From a virus: a stretch of 33,672 nucleotides of DNA. Each line of letters begins with the position of its first letter. Position 1 is the first letter of the stretch. The notes beneath the pieces are model-generated. The model did no database searches, was not told the origin of the DNA, and was given only the letters and a program-made list of their open reading frames with translations. The position numbers were made by a program, and so were the translations under genes. Below are positions 17,116 through 33,672 of the stretch, in pieces. Location: positions 1-33,672 of the IMG/VR virus record IMGVR_UViG_3300037010_000696. One strand, given 5' to 3'.

Positions 17116-20100
17116 ATGTCAGCTGATGACATCATCACAACCGGCGTAGCGATCGACACCACCGGGATTGACAAGGGTATCGAGCGCCTGGACGCGCTTG
17201 CTGCTACTGGCCCGAAGGTGGACAAGTCGCTGCAGTCGGTGGAGCAATCTGCGGCCAAGACGGGCAAGAGCCTGGCCACGCTTGGGCAAGGCTCGGGTGC
17301 TGGGCTGCAGGATGCCGCGCAGAAGGTAGACCAGTCCTCGCGCACCATCAGCCAGAGCATGCAGCGCACGGCGGATGCTGCCACTGCGAGCGACAAGGCG
17401 CACAAGGATGCCTCAAAGTCCATCGATGGTATCGGCGTGTCTGCCGCCCAGACGGCTGCGGCGATGCGTCAGCTGCCGGCGCAGTTCTCGGACATCGTTA
17501 CCAGCATCCAGGGTGGGCAGCGCCCGCTCTCGGTGTTCCTGCAGCAGGGCAGCCAGATCAAAGATTCCTTCGGTGGCGCTGGCGAGGCTGCAAAGGCCAT
17601 GGCCGGCTATATCGGCGGCCTGCTGAGCCCGTTCTCCATTGCCACTGCTGCGGCTGCCGGCCTCACGCTGGCCTACTACAAGGGCTCGCAAGAAGCCCAA
17701 GAATTCCGCAAGACCCTGATCCTCACCGGAAACGCTGCCGGCGTGACCGCAAGCCAGCTCATGGATATGAGCGCAGCGATCAAGGCCATGGGAGGCGGCA
17801 CACAAGGCAGGGCGGCTGAGATCCTTAACCAGATGGCAGCCTCGGGCCTGATTGGTGCCGAGAACCTTGCAAAGTTCACCGATGCTGCTCTGCGCCTGGA
17901 AAAGGTGGGCGGCCCTGCTGCCGAGGAAACCCGCGCCGCGTTTGAGTCGCTAGGGCGCGCCCCGGCATCCGCTGCGGCCAAGCTCAACGAGAGCACCAAC
18001 TTCCTCACTCGCTCGCTCTATGAGCAGATCAAGGCACTGGAAGATCAGGGCAAGACGGTAGACGCCGCCCGGGTGGCGCAAGAGGCCTATGCCGATGTGC
18101 TGAACCAGCGCAGCCCGCAACTGCTGCAGAACCTGGGGTACATCGAGCGCGCATGGCTGGCCGTGAAGGATGCAGTGAAGGGAACTGGTGACGCTCTGGT
18201 TGGCATCGGACGGCCTTCTGACACGCTTGGGGATCAGATAAAAGCACTGCGCGCCCGCATTGAGTCAAACAACTTTGATGCGTCACAGGGTGGCCAAACG
18301 TCCGTAGAGGCGGCCGAAAAAGGCAATGCCATTCTTGTTCAACGCCTTCGGTTGCTGGAGCAGGGCGCCAAGTACGAGCAGTTGAATGCCTACTACGCGG
18401 GCGAATCGGCCGACAAGACCAAGGCTGGCAACAAGTGGGAAGACGAGAAAAACAAGTACCTGACAAATCAGGAGTCTCTGAAGGCGGCCATTGTCAAACT
18501 GCAAAACGAGGGGCTCGCCGCAGGAATATCGCAGCTCGACATTGAGAAGCGCATTGCGATCGTCAAGCAGCAGTACGACATTGGCGCTCCACAGGAAGAA
18601 GTAAAGCGCCGAGAGAACGCGCAGCTCGAAAGCACGAAGCGCCAGCTGATCGAGTTGAACGCCCTGCGTGCAACCGGCTTCATCAATGAGCGGGAGTTCA
18701 TCGAGAAAAGCAATGCGCTCACAGTAAAGGATCTGGAGATCAAGCGGGCGGCAACGGTGCAGGAGCTTGCACTTTCTGCCAAGCGGATCAACTCTGAAAA
18801 GGAGCAGCAAGCACTCAAGACACAAGTGCTTCAGCTTGATGAGCAGATCAAGACGGCGCGTCTTGCTGGCGACAAGGATCTTCAGGTCTATCTTGCGAAG
18901 CGCAAGCTGGCCATTGATGCGGAGCTAGGTGCGCAGAAGGAGATCGGAAAGACCGAAGTTGCCATGGCGCGCGTCCGCGACATGCTGGCATCGAATGCCG
19001 CAGATGCAGCTGTTCGTTCCTACACCCAGGCCATTCAGGAGCAGAACGACCAGACGCAGTTTGAACTAACCCTCCTTGGTAAGACTCAGGAGGCGCGCGA
19101 CATTGAAATCGAGCAGTACAAGATACGGCTTGATCTTCAGAAGCAGATTCAAGCCGTTGACGATCCAAACAACGGATACGACCAAGCGCAGCGAGACCAG
19201 AAGAAAGCTGAGCTTGAGGCAGCTGCTGCCATCGCCAGGGCCAATGCCATCAATCGATCGTTCCTGAACGAATGGCAGCGCACCGCCGACAAGATCGGCG
19301 ACACCCTCACCGATGCCCTCATGCGCGGCTTCGAGAGCGGCAAGGGCTTCATCAAGAACCTTCGCGATGCGATGGTGAACACGTTCAAGACGACCGTGCT
19401 TCAACCCGTCATCAAAGCCATCGTGTCGCCCGTTGCAAACATCGTCAGCGGGGCTTTGTCTGGCATTGGCGGGTCCATTGCATCGAGCCTTGGGCTCGGC
19501 GCGCTGTTTGGCGCCGGCTCTGCTGCTGCTTCTGGCGTACTGGGTGCTGGCGTGGCTGGCGCTGCTGCGGGTGGCGGCTTGTTCTCGCTGGGACTGCAAG
19601 GCTCGCTCGCTGGCTTCGGTGAGTTGGGCATTTTGGGTGGAGCATCAAGCGCGCTGACCTCGGCAGGCTCGCTGCTCAGCGCGGGCAGCTTCACGGGTGC
19701 GCTCGGCGCAGCCCTGCCGGTGCTTGGCCCGCTGGCCCTGGGCGCCTTCCTGCTCAAGGACGCTTTCAACGGCGGCGCCGGCACCCCTCACCGTGGCGCC
19801 CAGTACATCTCGGACGGCACGAATGGCTACGTGCCTGCCGGCCTGGTCGTCGGTGACATGGCCTACGGTGATTCGGTCTATAAAAACCGCAGCCAGGAGG
19901 TTGAGGACGCCCTCAAGGCTCTGACGGGCGGCTCTGCCCTGGTGCTGAACAACTTCGCCAAGAACTTCGGCAAGACCGCCGACTTCAAGGTCGGGGCCTA
20001 CTTCGCTTCGGACAACCACGATCCTTCGCAGGGCAACATCACGGTCTTCCATGGCGACAACGCCATCCAGAAGACCAGCTCGCAGGGCTACGACAAAGAC

Positions 20101-21915
20101 CCGACCAAGGGCTACCAGCAGTTCACGGCAGACCTGGCCAAGCAAGTCCGCACGGCCATGGAAAGCATTGGCATCCCCGATTGGGCCAAGGGCATGCTCG
20201 ACAAGCTGGGCGAGGCCCCGGCGATTGAAGATCTGGCCAAGACGGTTGACGCCATCAACCTGACACAGACCGCACTGCTGAGCCTGGGCAAGACCATGCC
20301 TCAGCTTGCCGGCCTGACGGATTCGGCCGTGACCGCGCTGCTCGGCGCCTTCAACGGCATCCAGGGTTTGAGTGATGCAGCCAATTCCTACTACGCCAAC
20401 TTCTACACCGACGCCGAGCGCTCGGCCAACGTCACACGCAGCCTGACGGAAGAGCTTGGCAAGTTGGGTTTCTCGCTGCCAACCACCCGCGAGGGATTCC
20501 GCGCATTGGTGGAGGCGCAAGACCTCACCACCGAGGCGGGGCAGAAGGCCTATGCAGCGCTGCTGCAGCTCTCGCCGGCATTCGCGTCGGTGGTGGAGGC
20601 GACCAAGACGCTGAGCGAGGTTGCCCAACAGGCCGCCGACCAACTCTCCGACGCTGGCCGCAAGGTGCTGGAGGAACTGGCTCAGCAGCAAGGCTCCCTC
20701 ATGGTGGAGTTGCTCAAGGCCCAAGGCAAGGCCGGCGAAGCCGCAGCCCTGGAGCGCAGCCAATACCTTGCGAAGGCAACCCAAGGCCTCACCGATGCAG
20801 ACCGTGCCGCCATTGCTGCGGCCTACGATCTGAACAAGGCCCTGCAGGATCAGATCGAAGCCACGAACGCAGCCGCGCAAGCAGCGCAGCAAGTAGCCTC
20901 GCAGCGATACGACCTCGAAAGCCAGCTCCTGCAACTGCAGGGCAACACCGCAGAACTACGCCGCCGTGAACTGGAAGCGCTGGACCCGAGCAATCGCGCC
21001 CTGCTTGAGAACATCTACGCCCTGCAAGACCAGCAGAGCGCAGCGCAGCAAGCGGCACAGGCCCTGCAGCGTGTGTCTGATGTGATGGCAGGTCTTGGCA
21101 ATGCCCGCTTCGACCTCGAAAACCAGCTTCTGGGCCTGCAGGGCAACACCGCCGAGGTGCTGAAGCGCACCCGAGAAAATGACCTGGCCGAGCTCACCAA
21201 GGGCCTCAGCGCCGACGAAGCAGCCAAGGTCATTGCGGCCTACGACTACAACGCCAGCCTGAAGCAGCAGATCGAGGCATTCCAGGCTGCCCAGCAAGCC
21301 GCCGCAGAGTCGGCCCGCCAGGCGGAACAAGCCGCGCAAGCCGCCTCCCAGCTGAAGCAAGCGTGGCAGTCGGTTACTGATTCGATTTTCGATGAGGTGC
21401 AGCGCATCCGCGACCTGATCGGCGGCAACACGGCTGACAACTTCGCCCAGGTGCAGGCACGGTTTGCCATCACCACCGCACAAGCCAGGGCCGGCGACCA
21501 AGACGCAGCCAAGTTGCTACCGAGCCTGGCGCAGACGATGCTAAGCCTGGCCGAGTCGCAAGCCACCAGCTTGTTTGAGTTGCAGCGCATTCGTGCGCAA
21601 GCAGCCGGCAGCCTGGAAAGCACAGGCAACACGCTGGCCGGCCGCTTCGGCCTCACGCTGCCCAAGTTCGCCGCGGGCACCAACTACGTGCCCGAGGACA
21701 TGGTGGCCGTGATCCATCAAGGCGAGGCCATCATCCCGCGCGCCTTCAACCCGATGGCAGGCGGCGCTTCAGCAAACGCCGAACTCCTGGCCGAGCTTCG
21801 CGCCCTGCGTCAGGAGACCCGCGAGAACGCCCGATCGATTGCGAACCTGCAACTGCGCGGCGTCCAAGTTCTTGAACAGTGGGACGGCGAAGGCATGCCG
21901 GCAGTGCGCACATGA
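17116..21915 (+). CDS. tail tape measure protein
   Basis: The product has 1599 residues starting at ATG 17116 (MSADDIITTGVAIDTTGIDKG). A TTG further upstream lies inside a terminator and is unlikely. The N-terminal 350 residues match the lambda-type tape measure domain (SVFLQQGSQIKDSFGGAGEA). A long coiled-coil region follows, then a hydrophobic Gly/Ala segment (about residues 770-880), and Gln/Ala-rich repeats near the end (20683-21330). The C-terminus has LPKFAAGTNYVPEDMVAVIHQGEAIIPR. At roughly 0.15 nm per residue the tail would be near 240 nm, hence a long-tailed siphovirus. Confidence 0.93.
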   Translation: MSADDIITTGVAIDTTGIDKGIERLDALAATGPKVDKSLQSVEQSAAKTGKSLATLGQGSGAGLQDAAQKVDQSSRTISQSMQRTADAATASDKAHKDASKSIDGIGVSAAQTAAAMRQLPAQFSDIVTSIQGGQRPLSVFLQQGSQIKDSFGGAGEAAKAMAGYIGGLLSPFSIATAAAAGLTLAYYKGSQEAQEFRKTLILTGNAAGVTASQLMDMSAAIKAMGGGTQGRAAEILNQMAASGLIGAENLAKFTDAALRLEKVGGPAAEETRAAFESLGRAPASAAAKLNESTNFLTRSLYEQIKALEDQGKTVDAARVAQEAYADVLNQRSPQLLQNLGYIERAWLAVKDAVKGTGDALVGIGRPSDTLGDQIKALRARIESNNFDASQGGQTSVEAAEKGNAILVQRLRLLEQGAKYEQLNAYYAGESADKTKAGNKWEDEKNKYLTNQESLKAAIVKLQNEGLAAGISQLDIEKRIAIVKQQYDIGAPQEEVKRRENAQLESTKRQLIELNALRATGFINEREFIEKSNALTVKDLEIKRAATVQELALSAKRINSEKEQQALKTQVLQLDEQIKTARLAGDKDLQVYLAKRKLAIDAELGAQKEIGKTEVAMARVRDMLASNAADAAVRSYTQAIQEQNDQTQFELTLLGKTQEARDIEIEQYKIRLDLQKQIQAVDDPNNGYDQAQRDQKKAELEAAAAIARANAINRSFLNEWQRTADKIGDTLTDALMRGFESGKGFIKNLRDAMVNTFKTTVLQPVIKAIVSPVANIVSGALSGIGGSIASSLGLGALFGAGSAAASGVLGAGVAGAAAGGGLFSLGLQGSLAGFGELGILGGASSALTSAGSLLSAGSFTGALGAALPVLGPLALGAFLLKDAFNGGAGTPHRGAQYISDGTNGYVPAGLVVGDMAYGDSVYKNRSQEVEDALKALTGGSALVLNNFAKNFGKTADFKVGAYFASDNHDPSQGNITVFHGDNAIQKTSSQGYDKDPTKGYQQFTADLAKQVRTAMESIGIPDWAKGMLDKLGEAPAIEDLAKTVDAINLTQTALLSLGKTMPQLAGLTDSAVTALLGAFNGIQGLSDAANSYYANFYTDAERSANVTRSLTEELGKLGFSLPTTREGFRALVEAQDLTTEAGQKAYAALLQLSPAFASVVEATKTLSEVAQQAADQLSDAGRKVLEELAQQQGSLMVELLKAQGKAGEAAALERSQYLAKATQGLTDADRAAIAAAYDLNKALQDQIEATNAAAQAAQQVASQRYDLESQLLQLQGNTAELRRRELEALDPSNRALLENIYALQDQQSAAQQAAQALQRVSDVMAGLGNARFDLENQLLGLQGNTAEVLKRTRENDLAELTKGLSADEAAKVIAAYDYNASLKQQIEAFQAAQQAAAESARQAEQAAQAASQLKQAWQSVTDSIFDEVQRIRDLIGGNTADNFAQVQARFAITTAQARAGDQDAAKLLPSLAQTMLSLAESQATSLFELQRIRAQAAGSLESTGNTLAGRFGLTLPKFAAGTNYVPEDMVAVIHQGEAIIPRAFNPMAGGASANAELLAELRALRQETRENARSIANLQLRGVQVLEQWDGEGMPAVRT
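20683..21330 (+). repeat. three diverged ~70-residue repeats in tape measure
   Basis: Three in-frame units begin near 20683, 20904 and 21101. Units 2 and 3 share DLESQLLQLQGNTAE and DLENQLLGLQGNTAE and are also alike at DNA level. Unit 1 has the looser MVELLKAQGKAGEAAALERS. Units 1 and 3 end in similar AAYD, then KQQIEA or DQIEA, then Gln/Ala stretches. Copy-number change here would alter tail length in fixed steps. Confidence 0.7.
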
Positions 21916-22973
21916 CACAACCTCTCATCGTCGTGAAGCCGGTCCCCGTGACGGCGTTTGTCTCTTCCGATGTGCCCGAGGTGGCGCCGGATGCTTACAA
22001 CGGCGGGACCACCTATGCCATCGGCAATCAGGTGAGTGTGGCCGGAGCGCTTGGCCTGCAGACGGTGTACGAGTCGCTTCAGAACTCCAACACTGGCCAC
22101 ACGCCCGCCTCAAGCCCAACGTGGTGGAAGAGCATGGGCACGGTGTACCAGGCCTACAGCGGCGGCGCGACTTATGGCCTTGGCGAGCGCGTGCAAGACA
22201 ACTCCGCACATGTGATCTATGAATCGGCCGTGGCCGGCAACACTGGCAACCCGCTTTCAGACGTTACCAAGTGGGTGCGCGTCAGCAAGACCAACCTCTA
22301 CAAGGCCTTCGACACCGCCAACAGCAGCGCCACCACGAAGCCCAATTCGATGAGCTTCCGCTTCACGCCGGGGCAGGGCGTGGGCGCATTGGGTGTGCTC
22401 AACATCCAGAACGCCACCAGCATGCGGCGCCGGGTGATTGATCCGACCTATGGCACGGTGCACGACCAGACCACGGACCTTTCGGCGCTGCCGGCCTCGT
22501 CGGACTGGTGGGCATGGGCCTTTGGCGTCAAGTCCTCGCCATCGCTGAGCGTTGCCACCGACTTGCCGGCCGTCTACATCAATGCCGACATTCAGCTCGA
22601 CTTCACGGGCGGCGCGGATCTGGCCATCGGAACCATCATCGTCGGCCCGATTCGGCAAGTGGGCATCGCGGCGCAGTCTGGTGTGCGCCTGAGCTTCAAG
22701 GACTACTCGAAGCAGAACGAGAACGCCTTCGGCGACTTGGAGCTAGTGGAAGGCAACTACTCCAAGCTGCTCACCTTCCAAGTGCCGATGCTTTCCTCCG
22801 AGGTTGACCAAACATTCGACCTTATCGCCTCCCTGCGCGCCACGCCCTGCTTGTGGATTGGCTCGCAGAAATACCGCTCCACGGTCGTCTATGGCATCTG
22901 CGCAGCGCCTGAGATCGTCATCCAGGGCGAGCGCATCACTGACACATCCATTCAACTCCGAGGGCTCACATGA
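21912..22973 (+). CDS. tail tip protein, possible distal tail or carbohydrate-binding
   Basis: A 353-residue protein starting at ATG 21912 inside the tape measure stop (ATGA). Two copies of a GGxTYxxGxxV-type motif (GGTTYAIGNQV near residue 31, GGATYGLGERV near 80), each followed by a YESL or YESAVAGNTGN segment, resemble small chitin/carbohydrate-binding modules. The C-terminal 250 residues are beta-rich without a family I recognise. Position right after the tape measure suggests a tail-tip component. Distal tail protein with a sugar-binding front end is the best guess. Confidence 0.6.
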   Translation: MTQPLIVVKPVPVTAFVSSDVPEVAPDAYNGGTTYAIGNQVSVAGALGLQTVYESLQNSNTGHTPASSPTWWKSMGTVYQAYSGGATYGLGERVQDNSAHVIYESAVAGNTGNPLSDVTKWVRVSKTNLYKAFDTANSSATTKPNSMSFRFTPGQGVGALGVLNIQNATSMRRRVIDPTYGTVHDQTTDLSALPASSDWWAWAFGVKSSPSLSVATDLPAVYINADIQLDFTGGADLAIGTIIVGPIRQVGIAAQSGVRLSFKDYSKQNENAFGDLELVEGNYSKLLTFQVPMLSSEVDQTFDLIASLRATPCLWIGSQKYRSTVVYGICAAPEIVIQGERITDTSIQLRGLT

Positions 22974-23647
22974 GCATCACAACGGTATTTGATCCGCCAT
23001 TGGCTGGGGACTCGCAAAGCGTCTTCAACACCAAGGCCTTCGACACATTCTCCAAGCTCAACACCTGGGCCGGCGAAGCCAATGCGGTACAGGTGGCCAT
23101 CAATGTGCTGGCAAGTGCAGCAGCGGCCAGCCAGACGGCAGCAGCCACCAGCGAGACGAATGCGAGCGCGTTTGCATCGGCGGCAGCCGCCAGCGCCATT
23201 GCATCCGCCAATTCAGCCGGCGCGGCCATGTGGGTGAGCGGCACCTACAGCGCAGGCGCAGCGGCTCGCAGCCCTTCGAATCTGCGCGTCTACATCAACA
23301 AGACCACCGGCATCCGCACCACAGACCCGGCAGGCGATCCGACGAATTGGGTTGATGCGGTGTTCGGCGAGCGCATCCGCATTACCACGAACACGAATGC
23401 CGTGGTGGGCAAGCTCTACGAACTGGACAGCCGCGGCGGTTCGTTCAACGTCACCCTGCCGGCCAGCTACTCGGACAAGGACCGTATCGGCTTCGTGGAC
23501 GTTGGCTGCGCGCTTTCTACCTACCCCGTCACCGTGGTTCGCAATGGCAACAACATCCGCCTGACGGGTGAAGACCTTGTGCTTGATCTCAGTTGCGACA
23601 GCCTGAGTCTGGTGGCCCAAACCTCACTTGGATGGATTGAAGAATGA
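22970..23647 (+). CDS. tail fibre-like protein
   Basis: The protein has 225 residues. Residues 40-85 are an Ala/Ser repeat region (AAAASQTAAATSETNASAF), typical of the trimeric stalk in phage fibres. The C-terminal 110 residues are beta-rich (VGKLYELDSRGGSFNVTLPASYSDKDRI), a pattern seen in fibre tips. It overlaps both neighbours by ATGA. Probably part of the receptor-binding fibre. Confidence 0.68.
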   Translation: MSITTVFDPPLAGDSQSVFNTKAFDTFSKLNTWAGEANAVQVAINVLASAAAASQTAAATSETNASAFASAAAASAIASANSAGAAMWVSGTYSAGAAARSPSNLRVYINKTTGIRTTDPAGDPTNWVDAVFGERIRITTNTNAVVGKLYELDSRGGSFNVTLPASYSDKDRIGFVDVGCALSTYPVTVVRNGNNIRLTGEDLVLDLSCDSLSLVAQTSLGWIEE

Positions 23648-24096
23648 CCTCACGCTCTCAACTTGGCGGCGTAAGCCGTGTGACTTCGTTGCCTTGCGGG
23701 TTCAGCGGAAACGTTGGGGTTTCAGCGCAGATCTTTGGCCCAAAGATCGCAGTCACATCCGGTAATACGGGTTCGGCCGGAACACTCAACACATTGCTCA
23801 ACGCCAGCGGATCAAAGTTCAGGCTCAATGCCTTGACGGTGACCACGAATGATGCCACCCCGCGTGATGTTCGAGTGAAGATCACCATCGATGGCGCCTC
23901 AGCTTTCGACTTCACGGTCAGCATTGCCGCAATCGAGCAGCGCGTAGCGGTTGGATCGGTTGTTAGCGGGACCACGCAGTCAATCATCTTCCAGCCCGTT
24001 GATGCACTGAGGTCACTCAAGATCGAATACAGCAGCAGCGTCGGATCGGAGACCGGCAAGCTCTCGTTTGCCTACAACTACGAGATACGCCAATGA
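23644..24096 (+). CDS. tail-associated protein of unknown function
   Basis: The product has 150 residues, rich in Ser, Thr and Val and almost entirely predicted beta (LNALTVTTNDATPRDVRVKITIDG, SLKIEYSSSVGS). It reads like a beta-sandwich, for example a fibre head or capsid-decoration-type fold. Translationally coupled (ATGA) to the fibre gene upstream and to the 105-residue gene downstream, so it likely works with the fibre. Confidence 0.6.
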   Translation: MTSRSQLGGVSRVTSLPCGFSGNVGVSAQIFGPKIAVTSGNTGSAGTLNTLLNASGSKFRLNALTVTTNDATPRDVRVKITIDGASAFDFTVSIAAIEQRVAVGSVVSGTTQSIIFQPVDALRSLKIEYSSSVGSETGKLSFAYNYEIRQ

Positions 24097-24410
24097 GCGA
24101 CTACATCACCGAGCAGATCGGCGGCGCAGTCGTCACGCGGCTGGCAATCCCTGCGCCTGTCGTTCCCATCGTGCCCGAGGTCTCCATGCGTCAGGCCAAG
24201 CTTGCGCTGCTGGCGGCCGGCAAGATCGGTGCCGTCGAATCGGCTATTGCCGCGCTCAGCGAACCCGACAAGTCCGCGGCTGAGATCGAATGGCAGAGCA
24301 CCGGCACCGTGCGCCGAGACCATCCCACGGTCGCATTCATCGGCGCCGCTGCCAGCCTCTCTGAAGCCGAGATTGACGACCTGTTCGCGGCTGCCGCGCT
24401 GATCGTCTAG
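24093..24410 (+). CDS. small tail-fibre region protein
   Basis: A 105-residue protein. An N-terminal beta segment with many Pro and Val residues (IPAPVVPIVPEVSMRQAKLALL) leads into helices with AEIEWQSTGTVRRDHPTVAFI. Comparable short proteins, often at the end of tail operons, carry the MRQAKLALLAAG...AEIEWE pattern. Role unknown; possibly a fibre assembly factor. It closes the coupled tail block and precedes the terminator at 24428. Confidence 0.65.
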   Translation: MSDYITEQIGGAVVTRLAIPAPVVPIVPEVSMRQAKLALLAAGKIGAVESAIAALSEPDKSAAEIEWQSTGTVRRDHPTVAFIGAAASLSEAEIDDLFAAAALIV

Positions 24411-24427
24411 CCCGCCCAACTCCACAC

Positions 24428-24452
24428 AAGCCCGCCGCGTGCGGGCTTTTCT
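24428..24452 (+). terminator. intrinsic terminator after tail block
   Basis: AAGCCCGC (24428-24435) pairs with GCGGGCTT (24441-24448) and continues into a T-rich run. It separates the tail genes from the lipoprotein and lysis genes. Confidence 0.78.
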
Positions 24453-24467
24453 TCGTCTGGAGACGCC

Positions 24468-25565
24468 ATGCGCCGCCTGCTTTCCTTGCTCGTCCTTCCG
24501 CTTCTGTTGGCTGCTTGTGGTGGTGGCGGTGGCAGTGCTCCAGCCTTCATCCCGGAGGCGCACGCCGCCGAGCCGCCCAGCGCCTGCCCTGTTGGCGACG
24601 CCACTGCGCAACTGCAGGCCATGATCGACAGCGCCAAGGGGCAGCTGGAGCTGCCGGCCTGCGTGTTCAACGTGTCGGCACCAATCCTCATCAGCAAGCC
24701 TTTGCGTCTGGTCGGTGCCGGCGCGACGGTCACCGGAACCATCATCCGAAGTAGCGCCGATGAGGCGATGGTACTGGACCCAGCCGTCCGCGTGGCTGTA
24801 GCTGTGGGCGGGTGGAATCAGCGCGGCTACTGGGCTGGCGTCGAGAACCTACGCATTGAGCCGACTGTGAGCGGCGGCGGCAAGCATGCGCTGGTGTTGC
24901 GCGTTCGGCCTGGGTTCTTCATCTCAAGCTGGGCCGTGGACCGCGTGCACCTCGGCGACTTTGGCGAGCAAGGCCTGCTCCTTGAGAATCCAGGCGGGAA
25001 CGGTGATGGAATCTTCACTGGCTCGGTGAGCCGCAGCTACATCGAGAACGGCATCAAGGGAACGCTGATCGGAGACTCGGTGTGGTTCTACCGCAATAGC
25101 GTCACCAACGGCCCGAGCCGTTTCAACAAAGCTGGCTTGGTGGGCTTCGACATCAGTCTGGTTCCTGGCGCTGCCGAAACCATCATCGAGCAGAACAACA
25201 TCACCACGACTGGCGGATGTGTGCTGATCCGCAATGGCATTGGCATAGGTGTCCTGCACAACTGGTGCGAGACGGCCGGCGCTCCAGCAGATGGGCAGGG
25301 GCTGATCCAGCTCAATAGCTGCGAGGAATGCACCGTTCGAGACAACCGCGTCCAAACGATGGGCGGTGCCACGCCATATGCACTGGCCTTCAGCGGCGGC
25401 GGATTTTCAGTCATTGAATCCAACAAGCTCACCAGTGGCCAGCAGGGGCATATCGCCTTCTCAAATGGAGCGCACGACAACCTGCTTGCCGGCCTGAACA
25501 GGTTCGACAACACCCGCACCGGGAAGATCGCGGGCGCGTCTTCCGGCCTCATCTCCACCAACTGA
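24468..25565 (+). CDS. lipoprotein with right-handed beta-helix (tailspike-like) domain
   Basis: The product has 365 residues. It starts with a lipoprotein signal: MRRLLSLLVLPLLLAAC, lipobox LAAC with Cys17, then a run of Gly; Gly at +2 favours outer membrane sorting. The rest has pectate-lyase-like beta-helix spacing (repeated Asn, Gly and Ile/Val, e.g. EQNNITTTGGCVLIRNGIGIG, then VLHNWCETAG). GGAG precedes the ATG. A beta-helix tailspike would not need secretion, so this may be a host-surface protein made by the phage, for instance one that blocks or trims a receptor. A tailspike with a misread N-terminus is the alternative. Confidence 0.62.
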   Translation: MRRLLSLLVLPLLLAACGGGGGSAPAFIPEAHAAEPPSACPVGDATAQLQAMIDSAKGQLELPACVFNVSAPILISKPLRLVGAGATVTGTIIRSSADEAMVLDPAVRVAVAVGGWNQRGYWAGVENLRIEPTVSGGGKHALVLRVRPGFFISSWAVDRVHLGDFGEQGLLLENPGGNGDGIFTGSVSRSYIENGIKGTLIGDSVWFYRNSVTNGPSRFNKAGLVGFDISLVPGAAETIIEQNNITTTGGCVLIRNGIGIGVLHNWCETAGAPADGQGLIQLNSCEECTVRDNRVQTMGGATPYALAFSGGGFSVIESNKLTSGQQGHIAFSNGAHDNLLAGLNRFDNTRTGKIAGASSGLISTN

Positions 25566-25575
25566 AAGGCCCGAC

Positions 25576-25980
25576 ATGGCAGAACCCGCAACTTCTGGAG
25601 CCGCTGGCTTCGCAGGCTGGAAACTCATCGGCGGTGCTGCTGGCGTCGCTGCCGGTGGCGCCGGCCTGGCCGCCATTGTCGTGATGCTCATGACCCCGCC
25701 GCGCAGCCCGAGGGAGTGGGCGGTTGGCCTCATCAGCACCGTGGTCTGCTCCATCGGCTTGGGTTCCTGGCTGCTGCACTGGCTGGGTATGTCTGACCTT
25801 GCGGCATCCGGCCCTGCTGGCTTGGCCGTGCTGTTTGGACTGTGCTTTGCCTGCGGCCTTCCGGGTTGGGCGCTGGTGCGCGCTGCCTTCACTTGGATGA
25901 TCAAGCGCGACGGCAAAGACCTGGGCGAGATCGCCAGCGATGCGGCCAACACCGTCCGCGATGTGATCAAGGGGCAGTGA
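25576..25980 (+). CDS. putative holin
   Basis: A 134-residue protein with three likely membrane segments (about residues 12-40, 49-71 and 79-103) and a charged C-terminal tail (KRDGKDLGEIASDAANTVRDVIKGQ). Size, topology and position directly ahead of the putative endolysin and spanins fit a holin, which forms holes in the inner membrane at lysis time. No family signature was recognised. The stop shares a base with the next start (TGATG). Confidence 0.65.
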   Translation: MAEPATSGAAGFAGWKLIGGAAGVAAGGAGLAAIVVMLMTPPRSPREWAVGLISTVVCSIGLGSWLLHWLGMSDLAASGPAGLAVLFGLCFACGLPGWALVRAAFTWMIKRDGKDLGEIASDAANTVRDVIKGQ

Positions 25981-26378
25981 TGAAACTCACCCTCAAGCGC
26001 CTGGAGCTTTCGAGCCAATCCACGATAGGCCGACTCGCCATCGACGGCGAGGACCACTACTGGACCTTGGAGGATGTTGTTCGATACGGCCCCAAGGTGC
26101 CAGGCCAAACCGCCATACCAGCCGGCACCTATCGCGTGATCATCACGCCCAGCCCGCGATTCAAGCGCCCACTGCCTTTGCTGCTTGATGTGCCCGGATT
26201 CGATGGTGTTCGCATCCATCCGGGCAATACCGCCTCAGACACAGAGGGCTGCATCCTCGTCGGCATGGGCAAGTCGCCAGATCAGATCAGCCAGAGCCGC
26301 ATCGCCTTTGATGCGCTGTTTGCCAAGATCGATGCCGCATGCTCTGCCGGCGAGTCGGTCTACATCACCATCAGCTGA
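25980..26378 (+). CDS. DUF5675-family protein, endolysin candidate
   Basis: A 132-residue protein from ATG 25980 (MKLTLKRLELSSQSTIGRLAIDG). The sequence contains WTLEDVVR and a conserved cluster VRIHPGNTASDTEGCILVG near residue 80, with His, Asp and Cys in an arrangement like L,D-transpeptidase-type active sites. It sits in the endolysin slot between holin and spanins, and no classical lysozyme, amidase or transglycosylase is present in the window. A murein-acting role is therefore inferred, not shown. Confidence 0.68.
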   Translation: MKLTLKRLELSSQSTIGRLAIDGEDHYWTLEDVVRYGPKVPGQTAIPAGTYRVIITPSPRFKRPLPLLLDVPGFDGVRIHPGNTASDTEGCILVGMGKSPDQISQSRIAFDALFAKIDAACSAGESVYITIS

Positions 26379-26388
26379 AAGGCCGACC

Positions 26389-26610
26389 ATGAAACGCTAC
26401 CTGCTTGTCTCTGTTGCATCTGTTGTCTGGGCTTGCTCGCTGGCTGCGCTGGCCGCTGAGATCGGCCTCATCGATGAAGAAAAGGCCCTGTGCGAAAAAC
26501 AGGGTGGGTGCTTGTTCACCTCGGCCGGCTTTGTGCGTGAGCGCCTGCAAGCGGCCTATGAGGCGGGCTTTCAGAAGGGCCGGGCCAAAGCCTGCGGGCT
26601 TGAGGCATGA
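26389..26610 (+). CDS. small secreted lysis-cassette protein
   Basis: The product has 73 residues from ATG 26389 behind a CTGAAAGGC ribosome site. The N-terminus is a signal peptide (KRYLLVSVASVVWACSLAALAA) with likely cleavage after residue 23. Two cysteines (35 and 41) in the mature part could form a disulfide; the end is helical (RERLQAAYEAGFQKGRAKA). Probably periplasmic. No known family. Overlaps the Rz gene start by 4 bp. Confidence 0.6.
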   Translation: MKRYLLVSVASVVWACSLAALAAEIGLIDEEKALCEKQGGCLFTSAGFVRERLQAAYEAGFQKGRAKACGLEA

Positions 26611-27038
26611 GCTTGCTCTATCAGGCGCTGCTGTGCTTGGCACTGCTCGCCGGCTCATTCGGAGCTGGCTGGCTCAAATCCACCAGCTACCACGAAGCCA
26701 AGGCCGTCAAGGCGCAGCTAGCGCAAGAGCGCGCATCTCGCGTGCTCGAATCCCAGGCATCCCGCAACGTCATAAGGATCAGCGATGCACTCGAAGACAA
26801 GACACGCGCTCTTGCTGCTACTCGCCGCGATGTTGAGCAGCGCTTGCACGACGCTTCCGCCACCTATGCCGCTGCAAATACCGGCCCCGTCTGCCAGCCT
26901 GATGCGCCCCCAGTCGCCCGACTTCCTGACCAGACTATCCGCGATCTTGTCCAGCTTGCCGCAGACGCAAACGACACCGCAGCAAGGCTCACAGCCCTCC
27001 AGTCCTACGTCTCCGAAGTAGTCAAGCCGAAGGAATGA
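26607..27038 (+). CDS. Rz: i-spanin (Rz-like)
   Basis: The protein has 143 residues with an N-terminal membrane anchor (LLYQALLCLALLAGSFGAGWL). A periplasmic coiled coil follows (AVKAQLAQERASRVLESQASRNVIRISDALEDKTRAL), then a C-terminal region with RLPDQTIRDLVQLAADAN. This is the usual Rz layout. It fuses inner and outer membranes together with the Rz1 lipoprotein encoded inside it. Confidence 0.85.
   Translation: MSLLYQALLCLALLAGSFGAGWLKSTSYHEAKAVKAQLAQERASRVLESQASRNVIRISDALEDKTRALAATRRDVEQRLHDASATYAAANTGPVCQPDAPPVARLPDQTIRDLVQLAADANDTAARLTALQSYVSEVVKPKE
26785..27021 (+). CDS. Rz1: o-spanin (Rz1-like lipoprotein), nested in Rz
   Basis: The product has 78 residues in the +1 frame wholly inside Rz. 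It has a lipoprotein signal (HALLLLLAAMLSSAC, lipobox SSAC with Cys21). A Pro-rich mature part follows (TTLPPPMPLQIPAPSASLM), as expected for an outer-membrane spanin partner. Complete nesting is the same arrangement as lambda Rz/Rz1. Confidence 0.83.
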   Translation: MHSKTRHALLLLLAAMLSSACTTLPPPMPLQIPAPSASLMRPQSPDFLTRLSAILSSLPQTQTTPQQGSQPSSPTSPK

Positions 27039-27039
27039 C

Positions 27040-27219
27040 ATGCAGCCCAAGACATGCGCCCACTGCCAGCATTACAGGCCCTCAGACGAGGAATCGGCAA
27101 CCGGCGAATGTCGGCTGAATCCGCCCCAAATGCTCCACAGCGAAGAGGAGGGGCCTTACAGCATCTTCCCGCAAGTTGACTCCGAGGACTATTGCTCACG
27201 ATGGGAGCTTGCCAAGTGA
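27040..27219 (+). CDS. small cysteine-rich phage protein
   Basis: A 59-residue protein from ATG 27040, right after the Rz stop. Four cysteines (CAHC at 6-9, one near 26, one near 53) suggest a small zinc- or Fe-S-binding fold; it ends YCSRWELAK. The GTG start of the metallophosphoesterase overlaps its stop (GTGA), so the two are coupled. Function unknown. Confidence 0.65.
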   Translation: MQPKTCAHCQHYRPSDEESATGECRLNPPQMLHSEEEGPYSIFPQVDSEDYCSRWELAK

Positions 27220-28379
27220 TCGACCCAAAGCTACGCGAGTGGGCCACAGCCCGGCAGCTTGAGTACATCGAAGCAATCGAAGCTCACGGCTCTATCCGCA
27301 AGGCAGCAAAGGCCCTGGGCGTTGCCAAAGCGTCCATTGATTGCAGTATGGCGGGCCTCAAGAAACGCGCCGCACAATCCGGCTACAGCCCCACCCACGA
27401 CATGACCAAGACCGTGCCGGACGGCTTCAAGGTCCGAGGCGTGTCCACCTACTACGACCAAGACGGCAAGGCGCGGGGGCAGTGGGTCAAGTCCACGGCG
27501 GATGAGCAGAGGCAGGCGGAATTGATGCGGGCGGCATTTCAGGCGATGTCGATCGAGCTTCCTCGAGTTCCGCCAGCTCGAGCACCGACCGTCACAGTCT
27601 CGAGCCTCTGCAACGTCTACACACTGACAGATTGCCACATGGGCATGCTGGCATGGCACAAAGAGGGCGGCTCTGATTGGGATGTGAACATCGCCGAGCG
27701 GACACTGACGGGCTGTTTTGAACACATGGTTTCGAGCGCACCAAAAGCTCGAGTCGGAGTTGTGGCCCAGCTTGGCGACTTTCTGCACTCTGACGGACTG
27801 ACGCCAGTCACACCCTCGAGCGGGCATGTTTTGGACCAAGATGGGCGGTTCTCGAAAATCGTTTCAGCCACGATCCGTGTTCTACGCCGGGTAGTAGATT
27901 TCGCGCTCGAGCGGCACGAACAGGTTTTCGTACTGATGGCAGAAGGGAATCACGATATGGCCTCGAGCGTCTGGCTCCGCGCTATGTTCCGCGCCCTCTA
28001 TGAGCTCGAGCCTCGAGTCACAGTAATTGACTCAGAGCTTCCCTATTACGTGCACCAGCACGGTGAAACCATGATCGGCTTCCATCATGGACACATGAAG
28101 AAGAACGACGATCTGCCGCTGTTGTTCGCTGCGCAATTCCCAAAGGTATGGGGATCGAGCGTCAAACGTTACTGCCACACCGGGCACCGCCACCACGCCG
28201 AGGAAAAAGAACACTCAGGCATGACGGTGATACAGCACCCGACGCTTTCTGCTCGAGATGCCTACGCTGCTCGAGGCGGATGGGTTGCTGAACGACAGGC
28301 CATAGCCATGACCTTTCATGAGCAGTTCGGGCTGGTGGCGCGCAACACAGTCACGCCTGAAATGCTCGAGATTGCATGA
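27216..28379 (+). CDS. metallophosphoesterase with N-terminal HTH
   Basis: The product has 387 residues from GTG 27216. Residues 1-65 are helical with a helix-turn-helix-like GSIRKAAKALGVAKASI. The rest is a calcineurin-type phosphoesterase with the full metal-binding set: TDCHMG (DxH), LGDFLH, EGNHD, FHHGH and TGHRHH. Phage members may act on DNA, RNA or nucleotides; substrate unknown. From codon 116 onward the gene contains 12 CTCGAG sites, used in all three frames, while the first 346 bp have none. Its stop overlaps the next ATG (ATGA). Confidence 0.82.
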   Translation: MIDPKLREWATARQLEYIEAIEAHGSIRKAAKALGVAKASIDCSMAGLKKRAAQSGYSPTHDMTKTVPDGFKVRGVSTYYDQDGKARGQWVKSTADEQRQAELMRAAFQAMSIELPRVPPARAPTVTVSSLCNVYTLTDCHMGMLAWHKEGGSDWDVNIAERTLTGCFEHMVSSAPKARVGVVAQLGDFLHSDGLTPVTPSSGHVLDQDGRFSKIVSATIRVLRRVVDFALERHEQVFVLMAEGNHDMASSVWLRAMFRALYELEPRVTVIDSELPYYVHQHGETMIGFHHGHMKKNDDLPLLFAAQFPKVWGSSVKRYCHTGHRHHAEEKEHSGMTVIQHPTLSARDAYAARGGWVAERQAIAMTFHEQFGLVARNTVTPEMLEIA

Positions 28380-28540
28380 TCGTCAACCTCCGCGACCCCG
28401 CCAGCATCCTAGCCTGGCACCGCATCAACCCCGAGCGACACGGCCCGCAGCTCAAAGCCATCGCTAGGGTGCATCCGCAGTTCAGGGATGCGATCAGGCA
28501 GGCGGCTCAGATGGCGAAAACCGAGCCTTTGCGGAAATGA
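28376..28540 (+). CDS. small protein next to attP
   Basis: A 54-residue protein from ATG 28376, overlapping the phosphoesterase stop (ATGA). Sequence MIVNLRDPASILAWHRINPERHG followed by a basic helical end. Coupling and normal codon use argue that it is expressed. It is the last rightward gene before attP. Function unknown. Confidence 0.55.
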   Translation: MIVNLRDPASILAWHRINPERHGPQLKAIARVHPQFRDAIRQAAQMAKTEPLRK

Positions 28541-28580
28541 CGCGGGAGCGTATGCGGGAGCGGTGCCTTCTGATTTCTGG

Positions 28581-28638
28581 TGGTGCCCGGGGCCGGACTC
28601 GAACCGGCACACCTTGCGGCGGGGGATTTTGAGCCCCC
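28581..28638 (-). pseudogene. 3' half of tRNA-Leu(CAA)
   Basis: Read on the minus strand, this is a tRNA-Leu from the anticodon arm (GGGGG, loop CTCAAAA, then CCCC) through the long variable arm and T-arm (CCGGTTCGAGTCCGG) to the acceptor strand and CCA. The 5' half is absent. Such 3' tRNA pieces are usual att cores, so this may be a second or former attachment site. No arm-type repeats bracket it as closely as the tRNA-Arg piece. Confidence 0.8.
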
Positions 28639-28663
28639 TACCTGCATGGCCTGCACTCGAGGA

Positions 28664-28879
28664 CCTGTCTAACGCCGGAGCGTCTTCCTGGGAAGGAAGC
28701 GCTGGATTAATGGCTCCGTGAATTAGACAAATCGACCGCTAACCCGCGCCAATCCTCATTTGCGGCGCTGCCTTCTAAGCAGCAGGTCGGGGGTTCGAGT
28801 CCCTCCGGGCAGGCCAAATACAAGGACTTCAGCGGTAGTGCCCACTAACACCTGTCTAAGAAACAGGGGGTTTGTCTAA
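28664..28879. other. integrase arm-type repeats in attP
   Basis: Four copies of a 9-bp motif, YYTGTCTAA: CCTGTCTAA at 28664-28672, TTTGTCTAA inverted at 28723-28731, CCTGTCTAA at 28851-28859, and TTTGTCTAA at 28871-28879. Two lie on each side of the tRNA-Arg core; the right pair is 20 bp apart, about two helical turns. This is the layout expected for N-terminal-domain arm sites of a tyrosine integrase. Confidence 0.72.
28767..28816 (+). other. attP: attP core: 3' half of tRNA-Arg(UCU)
   Basis: GCTGC-CTTCTAA-GCAGC (28767-28783) is the anticodon arm with anticodon TCT. A T-arm GGGGG-TTCGAGT-CCCTC and acceptor strand ending GGCCA follow, to 28816. The 5' half of the tRNA is missing. It lies 66 bp from the 3' end of the integrase gene and is bracketed by arm-type repeats. 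On integration the phage would restore an intact host tRNA-Arg gene. Confidence 0.8.
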
Positions 28880-28881
28880 GT

Positions 28882-29865
28882 TTAGCGCGACGGCTTGGCC
28901 CGCCTCGGCGCCTTTCCGTCAACATAGTGTTCGGTCATCTTGAGCGACTTGTGCCCCAGCAAGTCCCTGGCCGACTCGAGGCCGTCAGCGTCTCGAGCAT
29001 CCATCCCGGCCCGCCCACGCAGGTCGTGGATGTTCAGATCCTCAATGCCTGCTCGAGCGCAGGCGCGAACCCAGGCGCTGCGGATACCCGAGTAGCGATA
29101 GCCGCGCCCGCTCTGCGTCTTGAGCACGTGGCCGATCTTGTCGCCTCGAGCGCACGCCTCAATGGCTGCGCGCAGGGCGGGGCTCCATTCGATCAGCAGC
29201 CGCTCGCCGGTCTTCTGCTGAATCACCACCACCCCTGCATCACCCACATCCTGCCAGCGCATCTTGATGACATCGCCGATCCGCTGCCCGGTGAGTAGCG
29301 CCAGATCGATCATCTGGACCAGGGCGGCGCCGTTGCGTGTAGCTTGCAGCGCGGCCTTCTTCAGCGCTGACACCTCGGCATCAGTCACCCACCGCTTGCG
29401 CTGCTCGAGCGTCTTTGCCGGCACGTTGTCGATGGGGTTGTGCCCCTCGCGTAGTCCCTCGAGCGCGGCAAACGCCAGCACCTGGCGCAGCATGGTGCGG
29501 TGCAGGTTGTAGGTGCGAGGGACGCTCGAGAAGTCCTTCAGGTACTTTGCGCAGACTGGCGTCGTGACCTGGGCCGGGCTGAACTCGGCGAAGGACTCGC
29601 CCATGATCTTGGCGATGCGCTCCTGATCCCGTGCTGTCTTCGGCGCCCAGCTCAAGCGCTTTTCGTCCAGCCAGCGCCCGATCACGGCCGGCATGCGGTC
29701 CTTGCTCGAGTCGGCGTCAACAAAGGCCGCCAGCGCCCGATACATGGCCGGCAGACCCTCTTTTTCCCCGCACAGTCGCTGCCACCTCCCGGCCAGCGTG
29801 ACCAGGTAGTAGGCTGAATGCTTGAGGTAGACCCTTGGGGGAAGGCCTGACGATTTGCGGATCAT
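28882..29865 (-). CDS. int: phage tyrosine integrase
   Basis: The product has 327 residues. A short N-terminal arm-binding part (LPPRVYLKHSAYYLV) leads to a core-binding SAM-like domain (about 60-145) and the catalytic domain. Residues R195 (TGQRIGD), H280 and R283 (HDLRG), H305 (LLGHKS) and Y314 (TEHYVDG) form the active site. It lacks the extra helix typical of integron integrases and is a phage-type enzyme. It is coupled to the DUF4224 gene by ATGA and ends 2 bp from an arm-type site. Every Leu-Glu pair is encoded CTC GAG. Confidence 0.93.
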   Translation of the reverse strand: MIRKSSGLPPRVYLKHSAYYLVTLAGRWQRLCGEKEGLPAMYRALAAFVDADSSKDRMPAVIGRWLDEKRLSWAPKTARDQERIAKIMGESFAEFSPAQVTTPVCAKYLKDFSSVPRTYNLHRTMLRQVLAFAALEGLREGHNPIDNVPAKTLEQRKRWVTDAEVSALKKAALQATRNGAALVQMIDLALLTGQRIGDVIKMRWQDVGDAGVVVIQQKTGERLLIEWSPALRAAIEACARGDKIGHVLKTQSGRGYRYSGIRSAWVRACARAGIEDLNIHDLRGRAGMDARDADGLESARDLLGHKSLKMTEHYVDGKAPRRAKPSR

Positions 29866-30092
29866 GCGGCTCTGCGGAGTTTGGGGGTGCGAAGCTGGGG
29901 CTGGTCAATCTTCACCTCGAGGTCACGGCCAGCGCAGACGGCCTCAAAGTGTGTGCGCTCGAGCACAACTGCACCAGCAGCATTCCGGCGAGCCCTGTAG
30001 AAACCTTGCTTACGCAGGGCCTCGAGCTGTGCGCCTGGGTTGCGGTAGCCTGTCAGCTCTTGCAGTTCTTCCGCACTGAGTGTGAGGCTCAT
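29862..30092 (-). CDS. DUF4224 protein, candidate excisionase/integrase partner
   Basis: A 76-residue protein (MSLTLSAEELQELTGYRNPGAQLEALR, later RARRNAAGAVVLERTHFEAV) of the DUF4224 type. These lie directly upstream of integrase genes in many Burkholderiales prophages. The small HTH-like N-terminus suggests DNA binding, so an excisionase or recombination-directionality role is plausible but unproven. GGGGAGGGG precedes the start. Its stop overlaps the integrase start; its start overlaps the leader peptide stop. Confidence 0.78.
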   Translation of the reverse strand: MSLTLSAEELQELTGYRNPGAQLEALRKQGFYRARRNAAGAVVLERTHFEAVCAGRDLEVKIDQPQLRTPKLRRAA

Positions 30093-30142
30093 TCCATCCC
30101 CTCCCCAATATCAATCCGCACCAGCTTTTCAAGGTCGATCAT
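30089..30142 (-). CDS. 17-residue leader ORF (MIDLEKLV type), left copy
   Basis: ATG 30142 has a strong GGAAAGGAG upstream. The product begins MIDLEKLV and ends 17 codons later at TGA, which overlaps the DUF4224 start. A second ORF with the same first eight residues lies at 32774-32854. It probably couples translation of the integrase operon, or is the disrupted start of a longer gene. Confidence 0.45.
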   Translation of the reverse strand: MIDLEKLVRIDIGEGME

Positions 30143-30143
30143 G
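30118..30143. repeat. 26-bp direct repeat, left copy
   Basis: Identical to 32830-32855. Similarity continues imperfectly for about 8 bp towards the array (GTG and TCC shared). The two copies bracket the integron-like array 30144-32829. Confidence 0.85.
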
Positions 30144-30213
30144 TGTGCTCCTTTCCGCGCCTTTTTATTCGGCGCCTTGTGCAAATCCCTTGTGCAACAG
30201 CCACTTAGCGCGG

Positions 30214-30272
30214 GTGTTATGCAGCAGGGTGGTGTTATGCGGCAGGGGGTGCGCCATAACTACAAGTTAGGC
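30214..30272 (+). other. attI-like integron recombination site
   Basis: Two direct repeats GTGTTATGCAGCAGGG (30214-30229) and GTGTTATGCGGCAGGG (30232-30247) are followed by CGCCATAAC-TACAA and GTTAGGC at 30266-30272. This is the architecture of integron attI sites: repeated GTTAC/GTTATGC-GCAG integrase sites, then a simple site ending in GTTAGGC where cassettes insert. The resemblance to class 1 attI is clear by eye. No integron integrase gene flanks it; the neighbouring integrase is of phage type. Confidence 0.65.
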
Positions 30273-30700
30273 ATCACGGACCCTTGCCAGTCCACTTTTC
30301 GTAGATGGCATACCTTCGCCGTGCTGTCTGCACCTTGGCCCTTCAACAGCGGCTCGCCCATGTGCGTCGGGCACTCGCGCTCGTGAATCTTGTTCATCGC
30401 GCTGCGGTACTCGCCTAGCGTGGTGTTCGCCTCGTCAAAGAATCGCGCCGATGGCGGGCACTCCAGCACCAGGCATTCCAAGTTCATCGCCAGCTTGTGC
30501 GCGAACTGCTTCGCTACCTCGTCCATGTCGTCGGCCATCGTGTCCTGCATCGGCATCGAAGCCGGGCGCCCTTCAAAGTGGGCCTTCATGGCGCGCATGG
30601 CATCCCGCACTTCGCGGCCGGGCTCTGCTTCGCGGTACTCCATCGCCAAGTGCAGGGCCTTCGTCACCCATGCGGTATGCAGTTCTTCGTCATAGTCCAT
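30260..30700 (-). CDS. cassette gene 1, unknown function
   Basis: A 146-residue protein. I chose ATG 30700 because GGAGG lies 7 nt before it; in-frame ATGs at 30706 and 30736 are possible. The sequence is acidic and helical (MDYDEELHTAWVTKALHLAMEYREAEPGREVRDAMRAMKAH in segments), with CLVLECPP mid-way and ERECPTHMGEPL near the end. Its start sits just inside attC 30719-30819 and its TAG lies in the attI-like core. It therefore fills the cassette but runs opposite to the attC direction. No family recognised. Confidence 0.65.
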   Translation of the reverse strand: MDYDEELHTAWVTKALHLAMEYREAEPGREVRDAMRAMKAHFEGRPASMPMQDTMADDMDEVAKQFAHKLAMNLECLVLECPPSARFFDEANTTLGEYRSAMNKIHERECPTHMGEPLLKGQGADSTAKVCHLRKVDWQGSVMPNL

Positions 30701-30718
30701 CGACATGCCTCCAGTGAT

Positions 30719-30819
30719 GCCTAACTGTCGGTTCAAGCGGAGCGCCCACGGCGGGTGGCAGTGTCGCGCTCCGGGTAGTGTTGCGGCGCCGTGGTCACCC
30801 GCTTAACCTAGCGTTAGGC
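30719..30819 (+). other. attC: attC site 1
   Basis: R'' GCCTAAC (30719-30725) and R' GTTAGGC (30813-30819). L'' GGTTCAAGCGG pairs with L' CCGCTTAACC except for one extra C in L''. The inner stem continues with CCACGGCG and CGCCGTGG. The extra base on the left arm sets the orientation as plus. Length 101 bp. Confidence 0.85.
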
Positions 30820-31074
30820 AACACAAACAGCCCGCTCGGCAGGCATCGCATGCGTCATCTTCAGCGCACACACCCGCTTGATGAGCTTGCGCCTGGCCGC
30901 CGTGGCTGCGCTATCAGTCAGCACATCGCGGATCACCAGGCGCACCAAAGCATCGGCGTCGCGCTGCAAGTGGTCAAGCCTCTCTGTATCGCCGTCCAGC
31001 ACCACAAGGCCCTGGCTGCGCAGTTGCTGTTGCAGCGGCGCAGAAAGCGCGCCAAAGTTCAGTTCTAGGTTCAT
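30814..31074 (-). CDS. cassette gene 2, unknown function
   Basis: An 86-residue protein from ATG 31074 with GGAG upstream (MNLELNFGALSAPLQQQLRSQGL, later RLVIRDVLTDSAATAARRKLIKRV). The frame is open back to 31116, but that start lies inside attC. Mostly helical; no recognised domain. Its TAA is contained in the GTTAGGC box of attC 1, and it reads opposite to the attC orientation. Confidence 0.62.
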   Translation of the reverse strand: MNLELNFGALSAPLQQQLRSQGLVVLDGDTERLDHLQRDADALVRLVIRDVLTDSAATAARRKLIKRVCALKMTHAMPAERAVCVA

Positions 31075-32774: not shown

Positions 32775-32854
32775 CACAAATCCCCTACTTCAACCAGCGC
32801 GCCTCCCCATGCCTGCCCGATAGGTATCGGCACCAGCTTTTCAAGGTCGATCAT
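32774..32854 (-). CDS. 26-residue leader ORF (MIDLEKLV type), right copy
   Basis: ATG 32854 overlaps the stop of the 185-residue gene (ATGA), and the TGA at 32774-32776 overlaps the next start. The product begins MIDLEKLVPIPIG and differs after residue 8 from the left copy at 30142. Overlaps at both ends suggest a translated coupling ORF. Confidence 0.45.
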   Translation of the reverse strand: MIDLEKLVPIPIGQAWGGALVEVGDL

Positions 32855-32855
32855 G
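32830..32855. repeat. 26-bp direct repeat, right copy
   Basis: Identical to 30118-30143. It covers the first eight codons of the right leader ORF. Confidence 0.85.
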
Positions 32856-33404
32856 CGTGTTCCCTCTTTCCTTCCATCTCTCCGCTCAGTTCTGGCGTAT
32901 GCCAGTCCCCGAGCTTGTGCCTCAATTGGTCTAGGCTGGGCTCCTTTGCCACAGGCGGGGGAGGGAGGGGGCTCAGTCGCATGAAGTGCGTGTAGGGTGT
33001 GGTGTAGCTGGCTGCTCTGGCTGAGCTTGGGGGAGGCACGGCGACATGCTTGCGCACCATCGCAATCATTTCCTTGGCCTGATCTTCATACTTCAGCCAA
33101 CGGTCGCCCCAAGGCTCGGGAATCGGACCACCTTCCCAAACGAGTTCGGTGCACGCCTCTTCTCCGCATTCGTTGGCGCAAAGCTCCCAGGCCAAAGGCA
33201 TCCACTCTTCGGCGTCTTCCCACTTGCTTGCCGGTACCGCCTGGGCCTGCTGGGCGAGGGCTGCGGAGATTTCCCGCTCGGCTTCCCAATACGTCCGCGT
33301 GCGGCTGTAGTCATCGCCCAGCGCATCGCGCTTGATGGCAAGAAGCTCCTGCGTCATTTCAAGGCCGGTGCGCAGCGCCTGCGCCAGTTGTTCGGTGGCT
33401 GTGG

Positions 33405-33408
<4 letters not shown>
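32851..33408 (-). CDS. phage early-region protein, unknown
   Basis: A 185-residue protein. It has helical, charged N-terminal repeats (MTTATEQLAQALRTGLEMTQELLAIKRD). An acidic Trp/Cys region (WEDAEEWMPLAWELCANECGEEAC) and a Pro-rich linker (LSPLPPPP) precede the end. No catalytic motif. The type is common in early operons of temperate phages of beta-proteobacteria. Coupled upstream (ATGA) to the Ala-Pro repeat gene and downstream to the leader ORF. Confidence 0.65.

Positions 33409-33672
<264 letters not shown>

Follow-up and report, generated by a model that had tools for sequence, protein, structure and literature searches.

How can a six-base palindrome saturate one short part of a phage genome and be absent from all the rest? 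The question is raised by the integration module of a phage in the virus record IMGVR_UViG_3300037010_000696, analysed over its 33,672 bases (the window). A direct count gave 24 copies of CTCGAG, all within positions 27562–30026 (the block), and none in the remainder of the window, as an earlier note on this DNA had stated. A second record, IMGVR_UViG_3300035182_000701 (G001), is 100% identical where compared (window 17231–30979) and extends the phage 14.6 kb upstream with no further CTCGAG. The phage, about 48 kb in all, has 24 sites in 2.46 kb, or 9.7 per kb, and none across the other 45.8 kb. The two records, possibly products of a single project, are not entirely independent; they have identical bases throughout the block and across both of its edges, and the reading frames of the genes run through. 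Misassembly is therefore unlikely.

The enrichment is confirmed. Dinucleotide shuffles of the whole window gave a mean of 12.95 copies and at most 21, compared to the 24 observed. When codons were shuffled synonymously within genes, the three genes of the block gave a mean of 3.25 (maximum 8; 2000 shuffles) against 23 observed, and the genes outside it a mean of 7.4 (minimum 1; 1000 shuffles) against none observed. All 64 palindromic hexamers were also scanned in 2.5 kb stretches; with Poisson expectations from second-order Markov counts, whose p-values rank islands and do not measure them, the block reached log10 p = -26.7, and among 79 further phage loci, 1.13 Mb obtained by a methyltransferase query, the strongest island was a TATATA simple repeat at -10.7.

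These sites are a feature of the DNA rather than of the encoded proteins. Inside the block, CTCGAG occupies 23 of the 29 positions (79%) at which the amino acids permit it synonymously: all nine Leu-Glu pairs, 9 of 12 x-Arg-x and 5 of 8 x-Ser-Ser. Outside, on the basis of a mechanical gene set, 0 of 171 such opportunities are filled. Over-representation in the block is thus independent of codon phase, and the earlier view that the sites fall in all three phases and represent a DNA-level signal is borne out by this analysis and by the synonymous shuffles. Genomes rich in guanine and cytosine (GC) often write Leu-Glu as CTCGAG, as in L097, L102 and L143 (mainly phase 0); these and other CTCGAG-rich contigs owe their sites mainly to the choice of Leu-Glu codons. 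For the block, codon preference is ruled out as the cause by the shuffles together with the phase analysis: all phases are filled and no shuffle reaches the count. With two records in agreement base for base and intact reading frames, the whole class of explanations by chance, codon preference or assembly artefact is extremely improbable.

The block takes in a phosphoesterase gene over its final two thirds, the attachment (att) region, the integrase gene and an excisionase-like gene (Table 1). All 12 CTCGAG of the phosphoesterase gene lie at or after 27562, and the left edge falls inside this gene, near the end of the N-terminal helix-turn-helix part. Since the nearest unfilled opportunities are at 27472 and 30128, both edges can be placed within about 100 nt. 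On the right, the edge coincides with a 52-nt linker, possibly a recombination joint. The two copies of the repeated linker open a short reading frame (MIDLEKLV...) and flank 2.7 kb of small early genes; the repeat is likely a recombination linker.

Table 1. Positions in the window of the CTCGAG block, its edges and the genes and att features associated with it.
Feature	Position	Strand	Remarks
CTCGAG-saturated block	27562..30026		First site 27562-27567, last 30021-30026; 24 sites
Left edge	27472..27562		Last unfilled opportunity (27472, Ala-Arg-Gly as CGCGGG) to first filled
Right edge	30026..30128		Last site to first unfilled opportunity (30128, Leu-Glu as CTTGAA, minus strand)
Phosphoesterase, calcineurin-like / phage DNA repair exonuclease family (phrog_704)	27216..28379	+	GTG start at 27216 probable, from sequence
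Non-coding att region	28542..28881		1 CTCGAG, at 28656
att core	28767..28819	+	53 nt identical to 3′ part of chromosomal tRNA-Arg(UCU)
Tyrosine integrase (PF00589)	28882..29865	-	8 sites / 12 synonymous opportunities
DUF4224 / excisionase-like (PF13986, phrog_1266)	29862..30092	-	Leu-Glu pairs as CTCGAG 3/3
52-nt linker	30100..30151		85% direct repeat at 32812-32863; at right edge of block

We favor, at a little under one chance in two, the view that the block is an integration module swapped in from a lineage with an accumulation of CTCGAG like that of the highly iterated palindromes (HIPs), and that it now resides in a phage which purges CTCGAG. The source would be a related phage or prophage lineage accumulating CTCGAG genome-wide, as HIP1 (GCGATCGC) accumulates in cyanobacteria, and the accumulation would probably be coupled to a methyltransferase recognizing CTCGAG. 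Ordinary recombination of phage modules would then have carried over, as we infer recently, the phage attachment site (attP) with the integrase and excisionase-like genes on one side and the final two thirds of the phosphoesterase gene on the other. The recipient would have purged CTCGAG, as is expected if its hosts carry restriction of the XhoI type, and two histories, one of saturation and one of purging, would join at the sharp edges.

This module swap is favored because 23 of 29 opportunities are filled inside and none of 171 outside, where the avoidance is real, and because the edges are sharp, the right one lying at the repeated linker; a recombined module should have such abrupt joins where modules or linkers meet. 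It is also favored because a CTCGAG-saturated background has been found in an unrelated virus, IMGVR_UViG_3300049491_000613 (G004). This contig of 24.7 kb and 46% GC has 138 CTCGAG spread over its length, the next most frequent palindrome occurring 21 times; 97 of 174 opportunities (56%) are filled, in all codon phases, and 41 more sites lie in 5.6 kb of non-coding DNA. Since it is saturated along its whole length, CTCGAG-saturated viral DNA exists. Integration modules do get exchanged, since the order phosphoesterase-integrase-excisionase recurs in L009 and L036, which carry different integrases. The earlier suggestion of a segment long resident in a palindrome-rich genome fits best in this form, with a virus as the example; as a bacterial host, such a genome did not turn up among the 399 and 398 genomes described below.

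Several results weigh against a module swap. Once CTCGAG is masked, the block is as close to the phage in its k-mers as other stretches are (32nd–65th percentile), so that a foreign base composition, as would mark a horizontally acquired compositional island, is not seen. The closest relatives found reach no more than 76% identity and all lack the island; no donor was found among them. The phosphoesterase has the same nearest relatives in its N-terminal as in its C-terminal part, and none is close; a breakpoint within this gene, sought as a change of nearest relative, was not seen. No CTCGAG-saturated bacterium was present among 399 genomes of the likely host family, where the maximum was about 1.3 per kb, and 398 genomes of the phylum had at most seven tight CTCGAG triplets each; by our estimate a saturated genome would yield hundreds. 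Finally, the fill rate in the block (79%) is above that of G004 (56%). Because a donor was not found, and because the tests of composition and of nearest relatives gave no breakpoint, local selection and local writing are kept as candidates.

Local selection would make CTCGAG a binding or modification site, for a methyltransferase, a silencer or a SeqA-like binder, at the integration module or the prophage ends, with the sites gained in place. The native composition agrees with this, as does the extent of the block, which is exactly the integration module and one neighbor and reaches equally far, 1.2 kb, to either side of the tRNA att core. The assignment of that core is firm, since a Roseateles depolymerans genome (G005), with a prophage whose integrase is 76% identical, carries it twice, 40.7 kb apart, with one copy 72 nt from the integrase gene. 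Chromosomes of the Roseateles family carry a tRNA-Arg with which the core agrees completely over up to 53 nt, which points, on sequence grounds, to a host there. The enrichment had been described as centred on attP, and the midpoint of the block, 28794, does lie inside the 53-nt core. However, the sites are not densest there: the att region, 340 nt of constrained non-coding DNA, is more thinly occupied than any other part of the block, with a single site, and both of the longest gaps between sites (291 and 319 nt) fall in it.

Two other features of the att region may be recorded here. GTCTAA occurs at 28666, 28723, 28853 and 28873, as three direct TGTCTAA and one inverted TTAGACA; these four copies, within about 210 nt around the core, are the only ones in the window and are candidate arm-type sites of the integrase. 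The stretch 28581–28639, beside the core, resembles part of a tRNA-Leu gene (88–92% to tRNA-Leu in two phage records). Since it adjoins the tRNA-Arg core, the region holds remnants of two different tRNAs.

The relatives also speak against a set of sites serving integration: those that have both this integrase and the excisionase-like gene are without the enrichment. Around integrases of 51–76% identity no CTCGAG island was found, the surrounding 1.4–7 kb having 0–5 sites, near background; the relative with five sites nearby, at 75% identity, has 38 CTCGAG spread over its 42 kb. In L008, two Leu-Glu CTCGAG codons of the excisionase-like gene are common with the block, and these seem to reflect codon conservation, not an island. 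The loci of 80 phosphoesterase relatives mostly have no CTCGAG or background numbers. Pairs such as L006/L209, L010/L217 and L011/L219 are the same records and do not count as independent relatives. A search with a three-site spacing pattern matched the second record of the phage and 12 other contigs, which are G004, two unrelated islands with their sister, and contigs mostly driven by Leu-Glu codons; a conserved spacing of sites in other viruses was rejected accordingly. The earlier note had listed binding sites for a protein acting on integration among its options, and had set beforehand a lack of enrichment around attP in relatives as the result telling against a role tied to attP. That lack is what the relatives display, and with attP itself the poorest stretch the proposal is weakened. 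Furthermore, near-complete filling of the permitted hexamers over 2.5 kb of coding DNA exceeds the need of any known site array, and helical phasing of the sites at 10.5 bp was not found. Local selection is on balance unlikely, and the block looks like DNA shaped in a different background or by a local process, rather than an attP-specific set of binding sites.

The proteins appear to have paid for the sites. Residues touching a CTCGAG differ from the consensus of relatives in 21 of 54 cases, compared to 118 of 552 for the block's remaining residues (Fisher p = 0.006); the effect is present in the integrase alone (p = 0.006), and the phosphoesterase alone gives p = 0.26. One site replaces Asn by Leu within the nearly invariant motif YENEPRV. 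Variable positions could contribute to the difference. As a departure from conservation it is in keeping with local selection, as is the presence of a C5 DNA methyltransferase in the phage. A combined proposal would have the phage or its host write CTCGAG into the integration module, or select for it there, at a near-saturating density that overrides protein conservation, with restriction removing the copies elsewhere, so that the prophage ends are marked at the level of DNA; it is doubtful, at perhaps one chance in four.

Could the sites have been written in place by mutation, mismatch repair or gene conversion of the very-short-patch type, turning near-matches into CTCGAG in the block only? 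The near-saturation and sharp edges are what such local writing should leave, and CTGGAG/CTCCAG is absent from the block, where 2.6 are expected. The other one-mismatch neighbors (CTTGAG, TTCGAG, ATCGAG and others) remain, however, with 13 in total against about 14 expected. At most sites every relative is 2 to 6 bases away from CTCGAG, beyond the reach of a single-step conversion, so the sites did not come from one kind of single-base change. Such a distance points to sites gained over a long time and not in one recent episode, and in this it favors the module swap. Conversion from a single precursor hexamer was rejected on both counts. Confinement of this kind is seen in no known process, and local writing is improbable.

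A module swap must also be set beside the import of CTCGAG-rich cargo. Two viruses, G002 and G003, have CTCGAG islands of 3–5 kb in genomes otherwise poor in sites. The G002 island encodes apparent AAA and VWA-type proteins and has 65–70% GC within a 53% genome; that of G003 includes non-coding arrays in which CTCGAG and GAGCTC overlap, as well as long repeats of CACACG type. These islands are thus largely cargo genes or simple repeats, with a distinct base make-up and a gain of GAGCTC. In contrast, the block matches its phage in GC and k-mers, has a single GAGCTC and consists of the phage's own integration module. Composition mostly refutes an imported cargo island, which is very improbable.

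CTCGAG is the recognition site of XhoI. Outside the block several restriction palindromes are avoided: GGGCCC and GTCGAC do not occur and AAGCTT occurs once, compared to expectations of about 8 to 12. Upstream of the window (G001, L119:9317-10769), an HNH/endonuclease VII-like gene stands beside the gene for the C5 methyltransferase (phrog_363; L119:9780-10769), and to judge from sequence the pair could modify or restrict DNA. Since the avoidance of CTCGAG outside the block is real and the phage encodes this enzyme, a link of the palindrome to modification or restriction is plausible. G004 also encodes a C5 DNA methyltransferase, for which no relative was found in the collection; its alignment to that of the phage is marginal (26% over 69 residues, E = 0.01). 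A link through this enzyme family was tried and rejected: relatives of the phage methyltransferase, 44–58% identical, are without phase-independent enrichment, L143 and L173 being driven by Leu-Glu.

Both contigs of the phage end in short GC-rich repeats, of GGAGCC type at 33405–33672 of the window and of a 24-nt type at the start of the second record (L119:1-200). The two ends may belong to a single repeat-rich locus in a circular genome.

For the origin of highly iterated palindromes, 79% filling beside 46 kb of absence amounts to a natural two-sided experiment. If the block is a graft, it is a datable transfer of palindrome-rich DNA into a foreign background; if it is not, palindrome accumulation can be local. 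On either reading, relatives, methylation calls and recoding offer ways to test how such palindromes arise.

Among known systems, the cyanobacterial HIPs, including HIP1, are the closest in kind: a short palindrome is hugely over-represented at the level of DNA. They are associated with methyltransferases recognizing them (Elhai, 2015; PMC4390886) and occur genome-wide at about 500–2500 per million bases (PMC4390886). The block, in contrast, has CTCGAG at 9,700 per million, limited to 2.5 kb of a phage whose other 45.8 kb have none, so that over-representation across a genome is absent; a literature search found papers on HIPs and none on a CTCGAG island or linking CTCGAG with 'highly iterated palindrome'. 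Ordinary phage integration modules, with a tyrosine integrase and DUF4224/excisionase at tRNA-Arg, share the gene content, the tRNA att core and the candidate arm repeats, whereas the relatives lack the palindrome island. Avoidance of restriction sites in phages resembles the state of the DNA outside the block, where CTCGAG and other such palindromes are missing or rare; it accounts for that absence, not for the saturation inside. G004 differs in being saturated over a whole contig of 46% GC with unrelated genes, but it shares with the block a saturation independent of codon phase, and G004 and the phage each encode a C5 methyltransferase.

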